In this document: piece by piece, positions 1,087 through 55,461 of the stretch
How the letters are laid out: each line of letters begins with the position of its first letter
Position numbering within the stretch: position 1 is the first letter of the stretch
Assembly: GCF_017432245.1 (NCBI RefSeq)
Contig: NZ_JAFRJO010000098.1
Span: forward strand, 1-55,461
Source of the DNA: Methanobrevibacter sp.
GTDB taxonomy: Archaea; Methanobacteriota; Methanobacteria; Methanobacteriales; Methanobacteriaceae
Length of the DNA: 55,461 nt
Direction: 5' to 3'
Position numbers and translations under genes: made by a program
The notes under the pieces: generated by a model
The model's input: the letters and a program-made list of their open reading frames with translations, nothing else
Told to the model about the DNA's origin: nothing
Database searches by the model: none

Positions 1087-2580
1087 TTGCAATTTTCAGA
1101 TAAGATATATAATGCAAAACCTGGTTACACTTATGATGATTTTTTATTAGTTCCTAATGCTTCCTGGATTGAAGCAAAAGATGTGGAAACTAAAGTAAAC
1201 TTAACTAAAGACATCCAATTAAATATACCTATTATGAGTGCTGCAATGGATACAGTTACTGAAGCTAATTTAGCTATTGCACTTGCTCAGGAAGGAGGAA
1301 TCGGTGTAATTCACCGTAACATCACTCAAGAGGCACAAGTGGAAGAGGTTAAGAAAGTAAAAAGCGCTGAAGATATTACTGTACGTGATGTAGTGACAAT
1401 CAGTCCTGAATCTTCCATTGAAACAGTCCAAGATATTATGGAAAATGAATCTGTTAGCGGTCTTCCAGTTATAGAAAATGAGAAGATTGTAGGAATTATC
1501 TCAAAAAGAGATGTCAGACCGTTTTTGAAATCTGATGCTAAAAAATTAGTTAAAGACATTATGACTTCTGAAGTTGTTACAATTAAAGAGGACATAAGTT
1601 CTGAAGAGGCATTGGATATTGCTTATGAAAACAAGGTCGAAAGGTTGCCTGTTGTTAGTGAAGATGGTGATTTGGTAGGTATTCTTACCATTAAGGATAT
1701 CTTAAATCAAGATCAACATCCTAATGCTGCACTTGATAAGAAAGGCAAATATTTAGTGGCAGCAGCTTGTGGTCCTTTTGATTTGGACAGAGCTATGGCA
1801 TTGGATGAAGCTGGTGCAGACATCATTTCAATTGATTGTGCTCATGCTCATAACATGAATGTAGTTAAATTTGCAGAAACCATTAAGGACAATATTGATG
1901 CAGACTTATGTATGGGTAACATTGCAACCCGTGAAGCTGCAGAAGACTTGATTGCTCATGGTGCAGATGGTCTTAAAGTAGGTATTGGTCCTGGTTCCAT
2001 TTGTACTACCCGTATTGTAGCAGGTATTGGAGTGCCTCAAGTAACAGCAATTTCAGAAGTTGCTGATGTTGCAAGCGAAGCTGGAATTCCTGTCATTGCG
2101 GATGGGGGACTTAGATACTCCGGTGACATTGCAAAAGCTATTGGAGCAGGTGCAGATGTTGTAATGCTTGGTAACTTGCTTGCAGGAACCTTGGAAGCTC
2201 CTGGTGACATTGTTACCATGAATGGTAGAAAATACAAGACCTACCGTGGAATGGGTTCCATTGGAGCTATGACTGGCGGATCCGGTGGTGGAGCTGACAG
2301 ATACTTCCAAGAATTGGATAAAGGCACCCATATGAAACATTCAAAATTGGTAGCTGAAGGAGTGGAAGGTGTAGTTCCATATAAGGGAACTGTAGCTGAA
2401 GTTGTCTTCCAATTGGTTGGAGGATTAAAGTCTTCCATGGGTTACTGTGGTGCTCGTGACATTCCAACCATGAAGGAAGTTGCTCGTTTCGTTAGAATCA
2501 CTGCAAGTGGTATTAAGGAATCACATCCTCATGAATTGATGATTACTAACGAAAGTCCAAACTATCCAAACTTTGAATAA
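1087..2580 (+). CDS. guaB: Inosine-5'-monophosphate dehydrogenase
   Basis: Oxidises IMP to XMP with NAD+, the committed step of GMP synthesis. The 497-residue protein has the usual order: an N-terminal barrel half, a two-CBS-domain insert at about residues 95-205 ([19 protein letters not shown] and [20 protein letters not shown]), then the catalytic half. The catalytic loop [13 protein letters not shown] puts the nucleophile at Cys306, and the flap motif GMGSIGAM is present. The start is TTG at 1087 behind AGGAGGA (1074-1080). It has the same orientation as mfnB, but a terminator lies between them. Full length, no anomalies. Confidence 0.97.
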
Positions 2581-10280: not shown

Positions 10281-10396
10281 TTTACTTTTTTAGTATTTTT
10301 TAACTTATTTTACTATTTTAACAAGGATGAAAGTATATCTAAGGCAAATCAAACCTGTTAACTTTTTGTAAAATTCGACTATCGTGAAACTACAGT

Positions 10397-10471
10397 TTAT
10401 TCAATGAAAATTAAGATCATTTGAATTATGAAAAGGATAACAAGCAAAACTTGTCTCAAAGTCACGACCAT
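10397..10471 (-). CDS. 24-residue hydrophobic peptide, possible small membrane protein or type I toxin
   Basis: Not in any family I recognise. The frame begins ATG-GTC-GTG at 10471 and ends TAA at 10397, giving MVVTLRQVLLV... followed by a nearly uninterrupted I/L/F/V stretch and a final IFIE. It has one predicted transmembrane segment (about residues 8-23) preceded by a single Arg. It is far below normal ORF cutoffs, but the context is strong: GGAGGTGA (10476-10483) at ideal spacing, one of the best RBS sequences in the window, and a TATA element (TTTATAAAT) about 80 bases upstream. Size and composition resemble Ibs/Fst-type toxins; a small subunit of a membrane complex is an equal alternative. 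Confidence 0.5.
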   Translation of the reverse strand: MVVTLRQVLLVILFIIQMILIFIE

Positions 10472-10558
10472 AATTTCACCTCCTTTAATTTGGGAAATTG
10501 AGGATTTGTTTTAGATATCGAAACCTTGATATTAGTTTAAATTAATTATTTATAAATT
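10472..10558 (-). promoter_or_regulatory. Promoter, leader and strong RBS of the 24-codon ORF
   Basis: Read on the minus strand: a TTTATAAAT box at about 10548-10556, a predicted start near 10525, a leader containing CAATTTCCCAA (10490-10500), and the GGAGGTGA RBS. The leader block recurs in inverted orientation at 10788-10805. Confidence 0.45.
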
Positions 10559-10747
10559 TAACCAATTTTATGCCTTTTATTTACATTTTAATTACTATAT
10601 TGATATTATTTTGTAAAAAACAATCTTTTTTGAATATTTATATTAAATTGAATTATGTAAAAATAGTATTTTTTTTAAAAATTAGTTTGAGAAATAGTTA
10701 GAGTATGTTAAAATTTTTAAATTATAAAAAAATAGCAAGTAATAGTT

Positions 10748-10840
10748 AACGTTAAAAGAATCCAAAAAGGAGGATTCTTCAACGTTTCAATTTCCCAATA
10801 AAGGAGTTTACATAAAGGTGTAAACCCTTAATCTTATTTT
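10748..10840 (+). ncRNA. Candidate structured RNA with two hairpins
   Basis: Hairpin 1: AGAATCC (10757-10763) pairs with GGATTCT (10772-10778), flanked by an outer AACGTT/AACGTT pair (10748-10753, 10781-10786). Hairpin 2: AAGG-a-GTTTACA (10801-10812) pairs with TGTAAAC-CCTT (10819-10829) with one bulged A. A TATA-like TTATAAAAAA lies at about 10723-10732, correctly placed for a start near 10750, and the segment ends in T-rich DNA. No ORF is present. It could be an independent sRNA or a distal leader of the component A2 gene 240 bases downstream. Confidence 0.45.
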
Positions 10841-11075
10841 AAGATTTATATTATTTAAATCTTATCAATTATGAATGAATTAAGTTTATTTTACAGTCAA
10901 TATTGCTTTGATTTCGTTATTTTCAATTTTTTCAGGAATTTTGAAAAGGTTTTAAATATAGGTAATTTAATATTATATAATGTATAAATATTTTTAATAT
11001 ATTTAAAATTAAAAAAATTATTAAATTAATTATTCCAATTAATAATAATCATTTAAAAATTTAAATCGTGGTATA

Positions 11076-12870: not shown

Positions 12871-13281
12871 ATGTTTAAGAATATTTTAGTTGCTAGCGAT
12901 GGTTCCAAATGTGGAGACAAGGCAGTTGATTTAGCTATTGATTTGGCAAGCAAATACGGTGCAAAGATTTCCGCTTTATATGTTATGGATTTTGCTCTTG
13001 ACTTTTCATATGATGACTTGGATGATGCTGGCGGAGCGGTCCTTGATGAGATTACAGCTAAGGGAAAGGAAAAGGATGTTGTTGTAGTTGAGCATATCAT
13101 CACTGCAGATCCGATTCAGGATATGGCAACAATGATTAGAAAGATAAATCCGGACATTGCTGTCTTTGGAGCTTTTGGAAAGTCTATGGACAAGGAAGAG
13201 AATATTGATTATTCTAAAATTGGAAGTGTTGCAGAAAATGCTTTAAAAGTCTCTAAAGTCCCTGTAATTTTAGTTAAATAA
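12871..13281 (+). CDS. Universal stress protein, UspA family
   Basis: A 136-residue single Usp domain with the nucleotide-binding alpha/beta fold. The start MFKNILVASDGSKCGDKAVDLAIDLA and the end SVAENALKVSKVPVILVK are canonical. The ATP-binding loop is present in stretched form (GAFGKSMDKEENIDYSKIGS), longer than the common G-2x-G-9x-GS. It lies 85 bases after atwA and about 100 bases before two rubredoxins and ferritin on the same strand, which suggests a shared stress role. Biochemical function unknown. Confidence 0.92.
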   Translation: MFKNILVASDGSKCGDKAVDLAIDLASKYGAKISALYVMDFALDFSYDDLDDAGGAVLDEITAKGKEKDVVVVEHIITADPIQDMATMIRKINPDIAVFGAFGKSMDKEENIDYSKIGSVAENALKVSKVPVILVK

Positions 13282-13384
13282 TTATTACTTTTTTCTGTTT
13301 TTTAAAATAAGTTGTAATAAAATAAAACAATTTATATATTATTAGAATTAAAGATATTATTAATTATTATTGGAGGTTAAAATT

Positions 13385-13543
13385 ATGGCTGAATACAAAT
13401 GTACTGTTTGCGGATACATATACGACACTGAAAAAGGTGAATCAAGAAGAAACGTCGAAGCAGGAACTGCATGGGAAGACGTACCTGATGATTTCAGATG
13501 CCCTTTATGCGGTGCAGTAAAAACTATGTTTAAAGCATTATAA
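13385..13543 (+). CDS. rub: Rubredoxin (first of a tandem pair)
   Basis: A 52-residue rubredoxin: MAEYKCTVCGYIYD...FRCPLCGAVK. Its one Fe ion is held by four cysteines in two CxxCG knuckles (Cys6, Cys9, Cys39, Cys42). It is an electron carrier, in methanogens usually feeding superoxide reductase, rubrerythrin or the F420H2 oxidase FprA. It has a strong RBS, GGAGGT, and its own TATA element (AATTTATATATT, about 13329-13340). Compared with the second copy, the loop before the second knuckle reads TAWEDVPDDFRCP. The C-terminus ends in the more basic KTMFKAL. Confidence 0.95.
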   Translation: MAEYKCTVCGYIYDTEKGESRRNVEAGTAWEDVPDDFRCPLCGAVKTMFKAL

Positions 13544-13595
13544 TTGATTTAAACTTTTTAGTATACGACTTCTAATTTTATTGAAGGTGAATAAA

Positions 13596-13751
13596 ATGGT
13601 ATTTGTATGTGATATTTGCGGATACGAATATAATCCTGATGCTGGCGACCCAGATAATGGCGTAGAACCAGGCACTGCTTTTGAAGACTTACCAGATGAC
13701 TGGACTTGCCCATTATGCGGTGCAGAAAAAGGAGATTTCGTAGAAGAATAA
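13596..13751 (+). CDS. rub: Rubredoxin (second of a tandem pair)
   Basis: A 51-residue rubredoxin: [31 protein letters not shown] and [12 protein letters not shown], with both CxxC knuckles (Cys5, Cys8, Cys38, Cys41). It is closer to the classical [22 protein letters not shown] consensus than its neighbour 52 bases upstream, and more acidic, so the two copies may serve different partners. The RBS is AAGGTGAATAAA. It lies between rubredoxin 1 and ferritin, probably in one transcript. Confidence 0.95.
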
Positions 13752-13835
13752 ATAAATTTTAATCATGATTATTAAATTATCATTTCAATGTTTAATTTAA
13801 TAAAAATTTTATTTTTTTAATTTTAAGGTGTTATA

Positions 13836-14333
13836 ATGGTAAATGAAAAAATGGAAGCAGCATTAAATGCTCAATTAAACGCAGAAGTATATTCTGGATA
13901 CTTATACTTATCTATGGCAGCTTACTTTGAAGACATCGACTTAGCAGGATTTGCTAACTGGATGAGAGTACAAGCTGCAGAAGAATTAGAACATGGTATG
14001 AAATTCTATGATTACATCATTAGAAGAGGGGCAAGCGTAACCCTTACTGCAATTGAAGCTCCACAAACCGAATGGGAATCTCCACTTGCAGCATTCGAAC
14101 ATGTTTTATCCCACGAAAAAATGGTTACCGGCTTAATCAATGATTTAGTTGACTTAGCTATTGAAGAAAAAGACCATGCAACCAACAACTTCTTGCAATG
14201 GTTCGTAGAAGAACAAGTTGAAGAAGAAGAAAACGCTATGGAAAACTTAGCTAAACTCAAATTAGCTGGCGACGACAACTCTTTATTATACAAACTCAAT
14301 GAAGAGTTCGCAGGTCGTGGAACTGCAGAATAG
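13836..14333 (+). CDS. ftnA: Non-haem ferritin
   Basis: Stores iron as ferric mineral in a 24-subunit shell and consumes Fe(II) plus oxidant. The 165-residue four-helix protein has ferroxidase ligands Glu17, Glu50 and His53 ([15 protein letters not shown]), and later [12 protein letters not shown] and [16 protein letters not shown]. It matches FtnA rather than bacterioferritin (no haem Met motif). The RBS is AAGGTGTTATA. It is the last gene of the UspA-rubredoxin-rubredoxin-ferritin run; a hairpin terminator overlaps its stop codon. Confidence 0.95.
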
Positions 14334-14359: not shown

Positions 14360-14552
14360 TTTTTTAATTTTTTCTAATTATCTATTTTTAAAACTATTTT
14401 TCTCTAAATTTAAACAATTATTTAATCTCTTATTTTTATGAAATAACATCAATTTGATTGAATAATTATAATGTAACAATTAAAATGAAAGTAAACTCCT
14501 AAAAAAACTATAATACTTATTAATAATGAAAATTAAGTATCAATTGAAGGTT

Positions 14553-14595
14553 TTTTATGCCTGCAGAAAATATACCCAAAACCGGAGGCATAAAA
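14553..14595 (+). promoter_or_regulatory. RBS-masking hairpin in front of the 39-codon ORF
   Basis: TTTTATGCCT (14553-14562) is the perfect reverse complement of AGGCATAAAA (14586-14595). The right arm contains the end of the GGAGG RBS (14584-14588), the spacer and the A of the ATG. A 23-base loop separates the arms. This is the geometry of a translation switch. A 13-codon frame starting at the ATG inside the left arm (14557) also ends in a TGA overlapping the ATG at 14595. Confidence 0.6.
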
Positions 14596-14714
14596 TGAAA
14601 ACTGAAATTGGAGAAATTCTTAAACATTCTTTTGAAGTCTTTAAAGAACATTTTAAAGACATTCTTGGATATTCATTAGAAATCTTGAAAATTTTCATTT
14701 TGCTAATGAAATAA
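14595..14714 (+). CDS. 39-residue small protein of unknown function
   Basis: Encodes MKTEIGEILKHSFEVFKEHF followed by a short hydrophobic tail ending ILLMK. The first half is an amphipathic, charged helix; the last 15 residues are hydrophobic enough to insert in a membrane. The start at 14595 is preferred over the in-frame ATG at 14526 because GGAGG lies 6 bases before it. The N-terminus resembles the beginning of larger polytopic membrane proteins of Methanobacteriales, so this may be a truncated relic. The conserved-looking control hairpin argues for a real gene. No function assigned. Confidence 0.5.
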   Translation: MKTEIGEILKHSFEVFKEHFKDILGYSLEILKIFILLMK

Positions 14715-14827
14715 ATTTGTAACTTGCTGTTGAATTTTAAAAAAAATTTTGTTTAATATTTTCATTGGGTAGTTTTTTTCCCTTCATAAATAAGTAAAGA
14801 TTATATATTCTAAAAATATAATATTAC

Positions 14828-14928
14828 TTAGAGTTTATTTCAAACTCCGGTTTATGGGAAAAATTTAAAGTTAAGAATTCTATTTGAATTCTTATACTTT
14901 AAGTTTTAAAACTATCTTTTTTTATATT
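14828..14928 (+). ncRNA. Candidate small RNA or leader upstream of malate dehydrogenase
   Basis: TATA-like TTATATATT at about 14801-14809 is followed by GAGTTT-ATTTC-AAACTC (14831-14847), then a long dyad. In the dyad AAGAATTC (14873-14880) pairs with GAATTCTT (14886-14893), extended by TTAAAGT/ACTTTAA across a small internal loop. A run of seven T follows near 14919. It could be a free ~95-nt sRNA, or the 5' leader of mdh if transcription reads through. No ORF inside. Confidence 0.4.
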
Positions 14929-16029: not shown

Positions 16030-16137
16030 TTTTTATCTATTCTTTTAAAAAGAGTATTTTATTTATCTTAACTATTTTTATCTATTTTTTTTAAAAAGAG
16101 TATTTTATTTATCTTAACTATTTTTATCTATTTTTTT
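16030..16137. repeat. 46-bp tandem repeat, about 2.3 copies, after mdh
   Basis: Units 16030-16074 and 16075-16120 are nearly identical (TTTTTATCTAT, T-run, AAAAAGAGTATTTTATTTATC, TTAACTA), and a partial third copy follows. The TAACTATTTTTATCTA core recurs after other genes and in reverse orientation at 41304-41347. Confidence 0.8.
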
Positions 16138-16238
16138 TACTTTTAGACTATTTTTAATCAATTAATATTTTAAAAAAGATTTTTCGTATGGATTGGTTAA
16201 TTTGATTTTAAAAAAAGAAAAATAAGTTTATAATTTAA

Positions 16239-53122: not shown

Positions 53123-55461
53123 ATGAAATTTAAAAAATCAAATATCCTATTGATTTCATTGATATCTATATTTTTATTATTAAGTATGAGTGCGGTATCA
53201 GCTGCAGATATTGCAGATAATGCTGGCTCTGATTTAGCAGCAGATATTGATGGTGTCTGGGATATTGATAATGATGATGTAAATCATGCTAATGGTTTAT
53301 CTCAAGCAGATAATAACATCATCTCTGATGATCCTGAACTATATGGGGATGAGGGAGATGGTGAAATCAATGATGATGATCCTATTCCAATAGAAACTAC
53401 AATTGAATCAAATGATGAAAATTATACCCTTGGAGACGATATTGTATTAAATGTCACTGTAAAGGATAATGAAAGCAATGTTATTGGTGATATTGGAGCA
53501 GATGATTTATGGGTTAGCTACAAAAATGAAGCTGATGAAGACTTTACAGACATAGGTTTCACTTTAAATAATGAATCTCAAATAGTGATATCTTCTTCCA
53601 CAAATACATTTCCTGTAGGAAATTATACTATAAAAATCGGATTTAACGGAATAACAAGAGATGGTATCGCTTATGGAGAATCAAATACTACCATTGATTT
53701 AAAGATCAAGGAACCTATTCCAATGGATACTTCAATTGAATCAAATAATGAAACTTATACCTTTGGAGACAATATCATATTAAATGTCACTGTAAAGGAT
53801 AATGAAAGTAATGCAATTGATTTCGAAAAATCTGATTTATGGGTTAGCTACAAAAATGGAACTGATGAAAACTTTACAAATATAACTTTCACTTTAAATA
53901 ATGAATCTCAAATAGTGATATCCTTTGCAACAAATAAGACATTTCCTGTAGCCAATTATACTATTAATATTGGATTTAAAGGTGCAACAAGAGACGGTTT
54001 TGCTTATGGAGAGTCAGAAACCAACATTACCTTAAATATCACCCCATCTGATACTAGAATCAATGCAAGTGATGTGAAAGTTCAGATCGGGGATGATGTA
54101 ATAATTCCTCTTGTCATGTATGTTGAATCCAATAAGACTCTAAACTACAATGAAACAAGGTTGGAAGTTTATTTGGTTCACGATGATATCGAAGAGAAAA
54201 TTAACTACACTAAAGTTAGTGGTGGCATAAAATTAATCGATTTTAGTCAGGAATTTGGCAATTACATTATTAAAATAAAATATACAGGCAATCAGAATTG
54301 TAATCCATCTAATACCACAGTTTCTGTTGCTATTCTTGAAAATAACACTATAATTTTTGGTGATGTAAGTGTAGATTTCCAAACTAAAAACATTACTATT
54401 CCTATTGTTATAGATAATAACGGAAATGCAATAGAATTTTCTGGAGAAAACTTTACTTTAGAGTTAGTTTATTATAATGGAACTGATTATGAAACTGTCT
54501 ACATTGATGATTTTGATTTCATCAGTGAAGATGGCAATTATACAATTAGTTTTGCAAATGATACTATTCAATTTAAAGATGTGAAATTAACTGTTATTTA
54601 TGCTAATGGCACTTTAAATGAAACAAGTAATATCATTAAGATTGTTGATAAGAACACCATTATTGCTGATGGCACTATAAATGTGAACAATCACACACAT
54701 AATGTGACTATTCCTATTAGTGTAAATCATACTACTATCATTAGTTATGATGGTAAGAACAGTACTAATGTAACTGTATTGAATCTCACACAAGATAACA
54801 TTGTTTTAGTATTGGCTTATAATAATGGAACTGATAATCTTACTATCACTGATTTTGAATTGAATGGCGATAATGGTAATTATACTATTAGTTTCCTTAT
54901 TACTGACGAACAGTTAAACAGTACTAAATTAACTATCATCTATGGAAATGGTACTTTAAATGAAACTAATAAAACTGTAACATTAAAAGGAATTGTTGAA
55001 GCTTATATTGTTCCTATAAACGTTTCAGCAGATTATCAGGATGGTGAATTTAAATTCCAAGTATTTGATGCTTATGATAATGGTACTCAAACTATGATTT
55101 TATCAAATGTAACCATTACAGTTAGTGGAGTAATCTTTGTTACTAAAACAGGAGACTCATCATACAATTTCGGTTCAAAGGATTTCACAACTGATGAAAA
55201 CGGATTTATTGTGATTAAAAACAACAACACTTTTTATAATGATAATATTCTTGAGAATTTCTTGTATGCAGGCAACTATAATTTAACCTTCAGAGGCCAT
55301 GAACCTTATGTTTTAAATAGTACAATCGAAATTACTATCAACAAGGTTCAAGCTGAAATTGTTGCCTCTCCAAGTGTAGAAGAATATGAAGAGGGTAAGA
55401 AATTAAACTCTATCTTCCAAGTAATCAATTCAAATACAGGAGAAGCAATCAAATCAGCTCT
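53123..55461 (+). CDS. Adhesin-like secreted protein (partial, runs off the window)
   Basis: At least 779 residues without a stop before the window end. The signal peptide MKFKKSNILLISLISIFLLL has cleavage near VSAA-D, followed by an acidic Asp/Asn-rich linker. Then come tandem Ig-like beta-sandwich domains: two closely similar copies (ESNDENYTLGDDIVLNVTVK and ESNNETYTFGDNIILNVTVK), then units with ITIPIVIDNNGNAIEF and similar strands. It is rich in N-x-S/T sites. No beta-helix repeats so far, so the architecture differs from the adhesin at 24 kb. RBS AAGGAGGA. The anchor, if any, lies beyond the window. Confidence 0.9.
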   Translation, partial: MKFKKSNILLISLISIFLLLSMSAVSAADIADNAGSDLAADIDGVWDIDNDDVNHANGLSQADNNIISDDPELYGDEGDGEINDDDPIPIETTIESNDENYTLGDDIVLNVTVKDNESNVIGDIGADDLWVSYKNEADEDFTDIGFTLNNESQIVISSSTNTFPVGNYTIKIGFNGITRDGIAYGESNTTIDLKIKEPIPMDTSIESNNETYTFGDNIILNVTVKDNESNAIDFEKSDLWVSYKNGTDENFTNITFTLNNESQIVISFATNKTFPVANYTINIGFKGATRDGFAYGESETNITLNITPSDTRINASDVKVQIGDDVIIPLVMYVESNKTLNYNETRLEVYLVHDDIEEKINYTKVSGGIKLIDFSQEFGNYIIKIKYTGNQNCNPSNTTVSVAILENNTIIFGDVSVDFQTKNITIPIVIDNNGNAIEFSGENFTLELVYYNGTDYETVYIDDFDFISEDGNYTISFANDTIQFKDVKLTVIYANGTLNETSNIIKIVDKNTIIADGTINVNNHTHNVTIPISVNHTTIISYDGKNSTNVTVLNLTQDNIVLVLAYNNGTDNLTITDFELNGDNGNYTISFLITDEQLNSTKLTIIYGNGTLNETNKTVTLKGIVEAYIVPINVSADYQDGEFKFQVFDAYDNGTQTMILSNVTITVSGVIFVTKTGDSSYNFGSKDFTTDENGFIVIKNNNTFYNDNILENFLYAGNYNLTFRGHEPYVLNSTIEITINKVQAEIVASPSVEEYEEGKKLNSIFQVINSNTGEAIKSA
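53381..54040 (+). repeat. Two ~330-bp direct repeats within the second adhesin-like gene
   Basis: Unit 1 is 53381-53713 and unit 2 starts at 53714 with the same CCTATTCCAAT. Stretches such as TTATGGGTTAGCTACAAAAA and TTTAAATAATGAATCTCAAA are identical, with small in-frame indels. Each encodes one Ig-like domain. A recent domain duplication. Confidence 0.85.

Follow-up and report, generated by a model that had tools for sequence, protein, structure and literature searches.

A locus in Methanobrevibacter sp. probably represents a two-gene antisense-RNA module working like a bacterial type I toxin-antitoxin pair, in which a short helical peptide would be controlled by an adjacent small RNA (sRNA) complementary to the Shine-Dalgarno (SD) region of its mRNA. 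This is an assignment, known here from sequence; full membership of the type I class requires both toxicity and repression. The locus forms part of a 55,461-nucleotide stretch of DNA (the window), in which the original prediction had drawn attention to a hairpin covering the ribosome-binding site of a 39-codon ORF. That observation was correct yet incomplete, since an antisense partner ~ 260 nt downstream, long-range pairing between the 5′ and 3′ parts of the mRNA and a further pair on the minus strand had all been missed. Judged by comparison of related copies, both the hairpin and the 39-codon ORF belong to a larger module, at one end of it.

The hairpin and its proposed functions

The left arm of the hairpin, TTTTATGCCT (14553-14562, plus strand), was confirmed as perfectly complementary over 10 bp to the right arm AGGCATAAAA (14586-14595), which spans the AGG of the SD sequence GGAGG (14584-14588), the spacer and the A of the ATG (14595) that opens the 39-codon ORF (14595-14714). 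The upstream 13-codon frame starting from ATG 14557 is also present, with its TGA overlapping the ATG of the ORF. RNA folding of positions 14500-14720 gave −40.7 kcal/mol (z = −3.3, with 1 of 200 dinucleotide shuffles as good) and placed the hairpin in both the MFE and centroid structures, the probability of an unpaired SD in the computed leader fold being ~ 0.21.

Covariation in related species, originally suggested as a check, gave a divided answer. Within the subfamily with 39-aa peptides (the window, L076/L078, L077, L061, L075 and L070 in this comparison), the hairpin arm pairs with the segment from SD to start codon in 58 of 60 cells, and both-sided changes occur at 4 of 10 pairs, with registers set by hand. 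Relatives with 25-aa peptides have the ORF without the stem, so the situation named in advance as refuting the idea, a stem lost while the ORF is kept, was partly encountered. These data support a real, selected, SD-sequestering structure in the 39-aa subfamily, and with it the idea of a small hydrophobic or amphipathic peptide placed under such a hairpin.

The functions proposed for the hairpin fared less well. A stand-alone RNA thermometer, ligand switch or device coupling translation to the upstream frame, serving a small protein tied to ferritin, would agree with a genuine hairpin that sequesters the SD and shows compensatory change, but we consider it highly improbable. No riboswitch or thermometer family was matched in a search with Rfam covariance models, and the 25-aa relatives do without the stem. 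In the two closest orthologues (genomes G009 and G016) the upstream ATG instead shares the reading frame of the ORF, and the 13-codon frame is not conserved in the remaining copies. Ferritin is a neighbour in only 3 of 15 copies, the others lying beside orc1/cdc6, dtd, a biotin carboxylase gene and others. Such a device would moreover leave the sRNA complementarity described below unexplained.

In the window itself, a cluster encoding a universal stress protein, two rubredoxins and ferritin (12871-14333) is situated just upstream of the hairpin and ORF, while a 46-bp AT-rich tandem repeat (16030-16139; 2.4 copies, 96% alike) follows the malate/lactate dehydrogenase gene.

The peptide

A tblastn search of 100 relatives returned convincing relatives of the peptide in the same genus only, and DNA searches recovered whole units of ~ 430 nt. 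Fifteen intact copies were found in one Methanobrevibacter genus, encoding peptides of 25 or 39-40 aa that share a conserved end block, [LF]E[ILV]xKI[FIV]I; the window locus has an orthologue in G016, a Methanobrevibacter olleyae MAG contig. Between closely related copies dN was much smaller than dS (dS 0.70 and dN 0.08; dS 0.46 and dN 0.11), as for an ORF that encodes a real peptide under purifying selection.

The 39-aa toxin-like product of the window, MKTEIGEILKHSFEVFKEHFKDILGYSLEILKIFILLMK (14595-14714, plus strand), was modelled by AlphaFold, from sequence alone, as one helix covering residues 4-38 (mean pLDDT 96), and the best 18-residue windows are hydrophobic and amphipathic. Across this family and the second one described below, peptides are 24-40 aa long with GRAVY values of 0.0-2.35 and amphipathic windows; helices of this kind (25-40 aa, amphipathic or hydrophobic) are probably membrane-active. 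Searches of Pfam, NCBIfam, PHROGs and PADLOC gave no significant match to the peptide, which has no homology to any known type I toxin, and no relatives were detected in viral contigs. A peptide-based contig search, limited by the shortness of the query, returned one relative only, from an M. olleyae MAG.

Predicted transcripts of the unit

Comparison of the copies suggests two tandem transcripts, each with a predicted start site. The putative mRNA promoter (14501-14526, plus strand) consists of an A-rich BRE-like stretch and the TATA box CTTATTAATA, which in an ungapped alignment stands at an unvarying distance (~ 29 nt) from TTGAAGG in 15 of 15 copies; the likely 5′ end of the mRNA is at TGAAGG (14545-14550). 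A conserved non-coding stretch follows the ORF in all copies. The predicted mRNA 3′ end, which reads ..GGTAAGTTTTTTCCTTCA in many of them, corresponds in the window to 14756-14786 (plus strand).

The second predicted transcript, an antitoxin-like sRNA (~ 14830-14923), begins ~ 115 nt 3′ of the ORF on the same strand. Its unit comprises a TATA-like box (14798-14808) ~ 30 nt before AGAGTT (AGAGTTT in the window), a small hairpin H2 (14831-14847), a variable linker CTCCGGTTTATGGG (14845-14858), a strong terminal hairpin H3 (~ 14859-14908) and a T-run to 14923. Antisense transcription from the minus strand, by way of the palindromic TATA of the sRNA unit, was considered and rejected: covariation resides in the linker and not in the overlap, which favours the sense-strand reading.

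Cognate-specific complementarity between sRNA and SD region

In the window, the linker matches the target CCCAAAACCGGAG (14575-14587, plus strand), made up of the hairpin loop and SD, except for one bulged base, and the loop of H2 extends the pairing to the AUG. Few parts of the unit change as fast as the linker and the segment preceding the SD, yet these two do so jointly. When leader:sRNA duplexes were computed all against all for the 15 pairs, the mean energy was −26.5 kcal/mol for cognate and −15.1 kcal/mol (sd 3.7) for non-cognate combinations. The cognate partner ranked first in 13 of 15 rows and columns, and 0 of 20,000 permutations were as good, although permutation values overstate independence because the copies are related. 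Eleven of the 15 pairs also outperformed all 500 dinucleotide shuffles of their own sRNA. Locus L062 was a weak exception (cognate pairing −17.2, rank 4 of 15).

Compensation can be followed directly at the ferritin|mdh locus, where both partners have changed together: the window carries CCCAAAACC in the mRNA and GGTTTATGGG in the sRNA, compared with TTCATTACTT and AAGTAATGAA in the G009 and G016 orthologues, and in the latter two TTCATTACTTGGAG in the mRNA is met by its exact complement in the sRNA. Genome G012 holds five paralogous pairs which are largely orthogonal, L062 being less so. These results point to a partner RNA forming a cognate-specific, covarying duplex over the SD and start codon, and on this complementarity the main regulator, missed in the original prediction, would be the adjacent sRNA.

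Multiple copies, several chromosomal sites and hairpins would also suit a non-autonomous, MITE-like mobile element with conserved ends, whose inverted repeats could be mistaken for antisense complementarity. Several observations leave this with next to no probability. Copies at a single site are common to several species, those within one genome have diverged considerably and, in the copies seen, show no sign of recent transposition, the complementary segments lie internally and evolve quickly as a pair, and the ORF is under codon-level selection.

Long-range folds of the mRNA

In all copies a 5′ stretch can pair with the mRNA 3′ end through three helices. P1 (TGAAGG/CCTTCA) becomes TGGAGG/CCTCCA in L072, P2 reads TTGCY/GRYAA across copies, and P3 (AAAATAT/ATATTTT) becomes AAAATTA/TAATTTT in L063/L064. 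In the window, TGAAGG at 14545-14550 supplies the 5′ half of P1, the left hairpin arm overlaps the 5′ half of P2, and the 3′ halves of P3 (ATATTTT), P2 (GGGTAG) and P1 (CCTTCA) make up the predicted 3′ end. With registers again set by hand, 96-100% of cells in P1-P3 were paired and both-sided changes were seen at six pairs. Full-length folds contained P1 in nearly all copies, about seven of them with a longer form of ~ 20 pairs. An ENE-like triple helix involving a U-rich loop between P1 and P2 was also considered, as a speculative element.

The predicted mRNA combines 5′/3′ long-range pairing with, in one subfamily, an SD-sequestering fold, the usual auxiliary trait of type I systems. These helices and the SD-hiding hairpin match known type I mRNAs, namely AapA1, with a 5′/3′ long-distance interaction, AapA3, with transient SD-hiding stem-loops, and ZorO, with an SD-hiding leader (PMC8167048). 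As the sRNA target lies in the loop of the hairpin, we infer that the hairpin may serve as both brake and landing pad.

A second family on the minus strand

A model of the sRNA (R1) gave a second, weak match in the window at 10864-10743 on the minus strand (E 0.0027). The adjoining sequence has a leader, CAAGG..CAATTTCCCAAATTAAAGGAGG, preceded by an archaeal promoter, and a hydrophobic 24-codon ORF, MVVTLRQVLLVILFIIQMILIFIE (10471-10397). The divergent pair (10870-10320, minus strand) is arranged with the sRNA before the mRNA, the opposite of family 1. All its predicted elements are on the minus strand: a TATA-like sRNA promoter (10843-10863); the sRNA (10743-10829) with H2, linker (10806-10788) and H3 (10786-10748); the TATA promoter of the peptide mRNA (10529-10563); the target CAATTTCCCAAATTAAAGGAGG, including the SD (10479-10500); the ORF for the 24-aa peptide (10397-10471); and the mRNA 3′ end (10322-10342), where GATAT..CCTTG pairs with the 5′ CAAGG..GATATC. 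The SD region matches its own sRNA linker, CTCCTTTATTGGGAAATTG, at −36 kcal/mol. As far as sequence features go, a prediction made from the sRNA model alone came true in this second pair.

Genus-wide, family 2 comprises 12 intact pairs, one pair whose ORF is frameshifted (L173) and three loci with the sRNA only (L160, L161 and L170). Covariation is seen among the seven pairs of subfamily 2a (cognate −38.1 against −28.3 for non-cognate; permutation p 0.0003), and there is no cross-match between 2a and 2b (about −19). The 2a peptide is identical in four genomes over DNA that is ~ 82% identical, and the genome of the window carries a second 2a copy (G000:C82:1084-1607, L169).

Distribution of intact pairs and orphan sRNAs

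Collectively, 27 intact pairs were identified in the two families (15 + 12). In a sample consisting mostly of MAGs, up to 10 sRNAs had no intact peptide gene beside them, and the reverse was never seen. Family-1 sRNAs without an intact mRNA unit are the tandem copy in L061, L066, L068, L097, L102 and, with a decayed ORF, L065; the second L061 copy and L102 are duplications rather than losses. The locus between orc1/cdc6-like and MptE-like genes (names assigned by eye and not by profile) carries a full pair in G005 (L067), an sRNA whose mRNA has been lost between two T-runs in G016 (L068), and an sRNA only in G006 (L066). The marR|dtd locus has pairs in three genomes and an sRNA alone in G013 (L097), which retains complementarity to the mRNA type absent there (−31.0 kcal/mol). 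Searching to the same depth with a leader model (R2) gave 16 strong matches, of which 15 were the intact units and one the remnant at L068, and no peptide gene lacking an sRNA.

Two neighbourhoods of these loci may be recorded. The orphan sRNA of L102 (1138-1625, G012) lies directly downstream of a 106-aa RelE/HigB-like ORF, ~ 2.3 kb from the intact L064, and an HsdR-like helicase/nuclease gene adjoins both the orphan sRNA in G013 (L097, 1-1640) and an intact pair in G017 (L072).

Beyond the genus, R1, a leader pattern, R2 and a family-2 model (R3) found nothing convincing in 139 genomes of the family and 60 of the order; one leader match, in G023, was discarded as it falls in coding sequence. 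Weak R1 matches at L141, L142, L143, L147 and L149 have no clear SD-like partner nearby, L141 (~ 1501-1616, minus strand, G014) showing a two-hairpin fold that may belong to a third family. Restriction to one genus may reflect the reach of sequence searching.

The orphan units bear on whether there is a separate sRNA at all. Both parts lie in tandem on one strand and termination between them is deduced from T-runs only, so a single long RNA, an mRNA with a structured 3′ UTR of ~ 200 nt whose linker pairs with the SD in cis, could be imagined. We regard it as improbable: the downstream unit stands alone with its own TATA-like box in L066, L097, L102 and L170, and a 3′ UTR cannot be the general arrangement because the order is reversed in family 2. 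A TATA box at archaeal spacing and a terminal hairpin with T-run join these stand-alone copies and the reversed order as features that would suit a separate sRNA.

The same distribution helps with the nature of the peptide. All of the RNA evidence would fit any antisense-controlled small protein, including a small membrane protein with a physiological, non-toxic role (modulation of a membrane complex, for example) under an ordinary regulatory sRNA. This is nevertheless unlikely, given up to 10 sRNAs without an intact peptide gene and never the reverse, several largely orthogonal paralogues per genome, and short bare amphipathic/hydrophobic helices with 5′/3′ closed mRNAs, typical of type I toxins (PMC8167048, PMC8309996).

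Discussion

Under the toxin-antitoxin reading, the first gene would produce an mRNA of ~ 240 nt for an amphipathic or hydrophobic helix of 25-40 aa, and the second, in tandem on the same strand and with its own TATA promoter, an sRNA of ~ 90 nt with two hairpins and a linker. Pairing of the linker and H2 loop with the mRNA, over a segment that begins slightly 5′ of the SD and reaches into the start codon, would block ribosome entry; repression of translation is proposed because the duplex covers both SD and start codon. During synthesis of the 5′ end, the 10-bp hairpin of the 39-aa subfamily would hide the SD and expose the sRNA target in its loop, stopping translation of the nascent mRNA, with 5′/3′ closure holding the finished molecule. 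The sRNA would then keep the SD covered and, should it fall behind, the peptide would be made and probably act on the membrane. Loss of the sRNA alone would be costly, and loss of the peptide gene would not.

A site at which a trigger might act can be suggested. Immediately upstream of the peptide promoter, the G012 copies carry 19-bp direct repeats (TCAATTTAACGAAATGAAA type) of up to ~ 12 units (L077, 2662-2942; L062, 1632-1785; also L061, L063 and L064), decayed in the window; a possible role is that of an operator array. A similar ATTGATTTTAAAATATTAAA array with a TATA box and TTGAAGG start is found in L134 and L120 (reverse strand, near locus position 1500) upstream of a gene for an adhesin-like secreted protein, which may share a regulator with the peptide mRNAs. 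A 333-bp tandem repeat of the window (53381-54016, 1.9 copies) lies within an apparent adhesin-type repeat protein gene.

More broadly, type I (antisense-RNA) toxin-antitoxin systems probably exist in Archaea, as at least two divergent peptide families of Methanobrevibacter with one design of RNA control (a tandem sRNA covering the SD, SD-hiding mRNA folds and a 5′/3′ closed mRNA) and several largely orthogonal pairs per genome. Within the part of the literature covered, we found no report of an archaeal type I system, only type II systems with antisense RNAs (PMC6523106). If true, methanogens would possess a peptide toxin under RNA control, and the type I class would reach a second domain, where promoters are archaeal and membranes are built of ether lipids; candidate growth-arrest peptides in rumen methanogens would be a further gain. 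Natural covariation in cognate RNA-mRNA pairs makes specificity directly testable, and an architecture-based search, for covarying SD complementarity beside a hairpin RNA, finds pairs that homology search misses.

A 2025 paper placed type I systems otherwise only in Proteobacteria, Firmicutes and Tenericutes, its cyanobacterial case being the first outside them (PMC12390103). That case, MsoT1/MsoA1 of Microcystis aeruginosa, resembles ours as a type I module outside the classical phyla, but is bacterial and cis-antisense (PMC12390103). RNA-based toxin-antitoxin control is shared with CreTA, a CRISPR-regulated system (PMC10097628). In CreTA, however, an RNA acts as the toxin and a CRISPR effector is guided by the antitoxin, whereas here a toxin-like peptide would be subject to antisense pairing at the SD. 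Archaeal cases of CreTA-type systems exist.

Closer parallels are found among bacterial type I pairs. AapA/IsoA of Helicobacter pylori has a small hydrophobic helix, a 5′/3′ interaction, SD-sequestering 5′ stem-loops and an antisense RNA (PMC8167048). The present sRNA differs in being a separate same-strand unit with archaeal promoters in the system and no sequence relation. IsoA is encoded antisense to the toxin gene. TisB/IstR-1 and ZorO/OrzO of Escherichia coli share a small amphipathic or hydrophobic helix, a neighbouring, non-overlapping sRNA with limited complementarity to the leader, a leader fold that hides the ribosome site, and paralogous pairs that discriminate (PMC8167048, PMC8309996). 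IstR-1 targets an upstream standby site, whereas here the SD itself would be covered; the tandem one-strand order is a further difference, and there is no homology. In Hok/Sok, the mRNA 5′ and 3′ ends pair, the SD region is hidden, and an antisense RNA controls a membrane-acting peptide. Our module has no conserved mok-like overlapping frame, its sRNA is non-overlapping and its peptide unrelated, but it would resemble Hok/Sok in 5′/3′ mRNA pairing, a hidden SD, an antisense RNA and a peptide predicted to act on the membrane.
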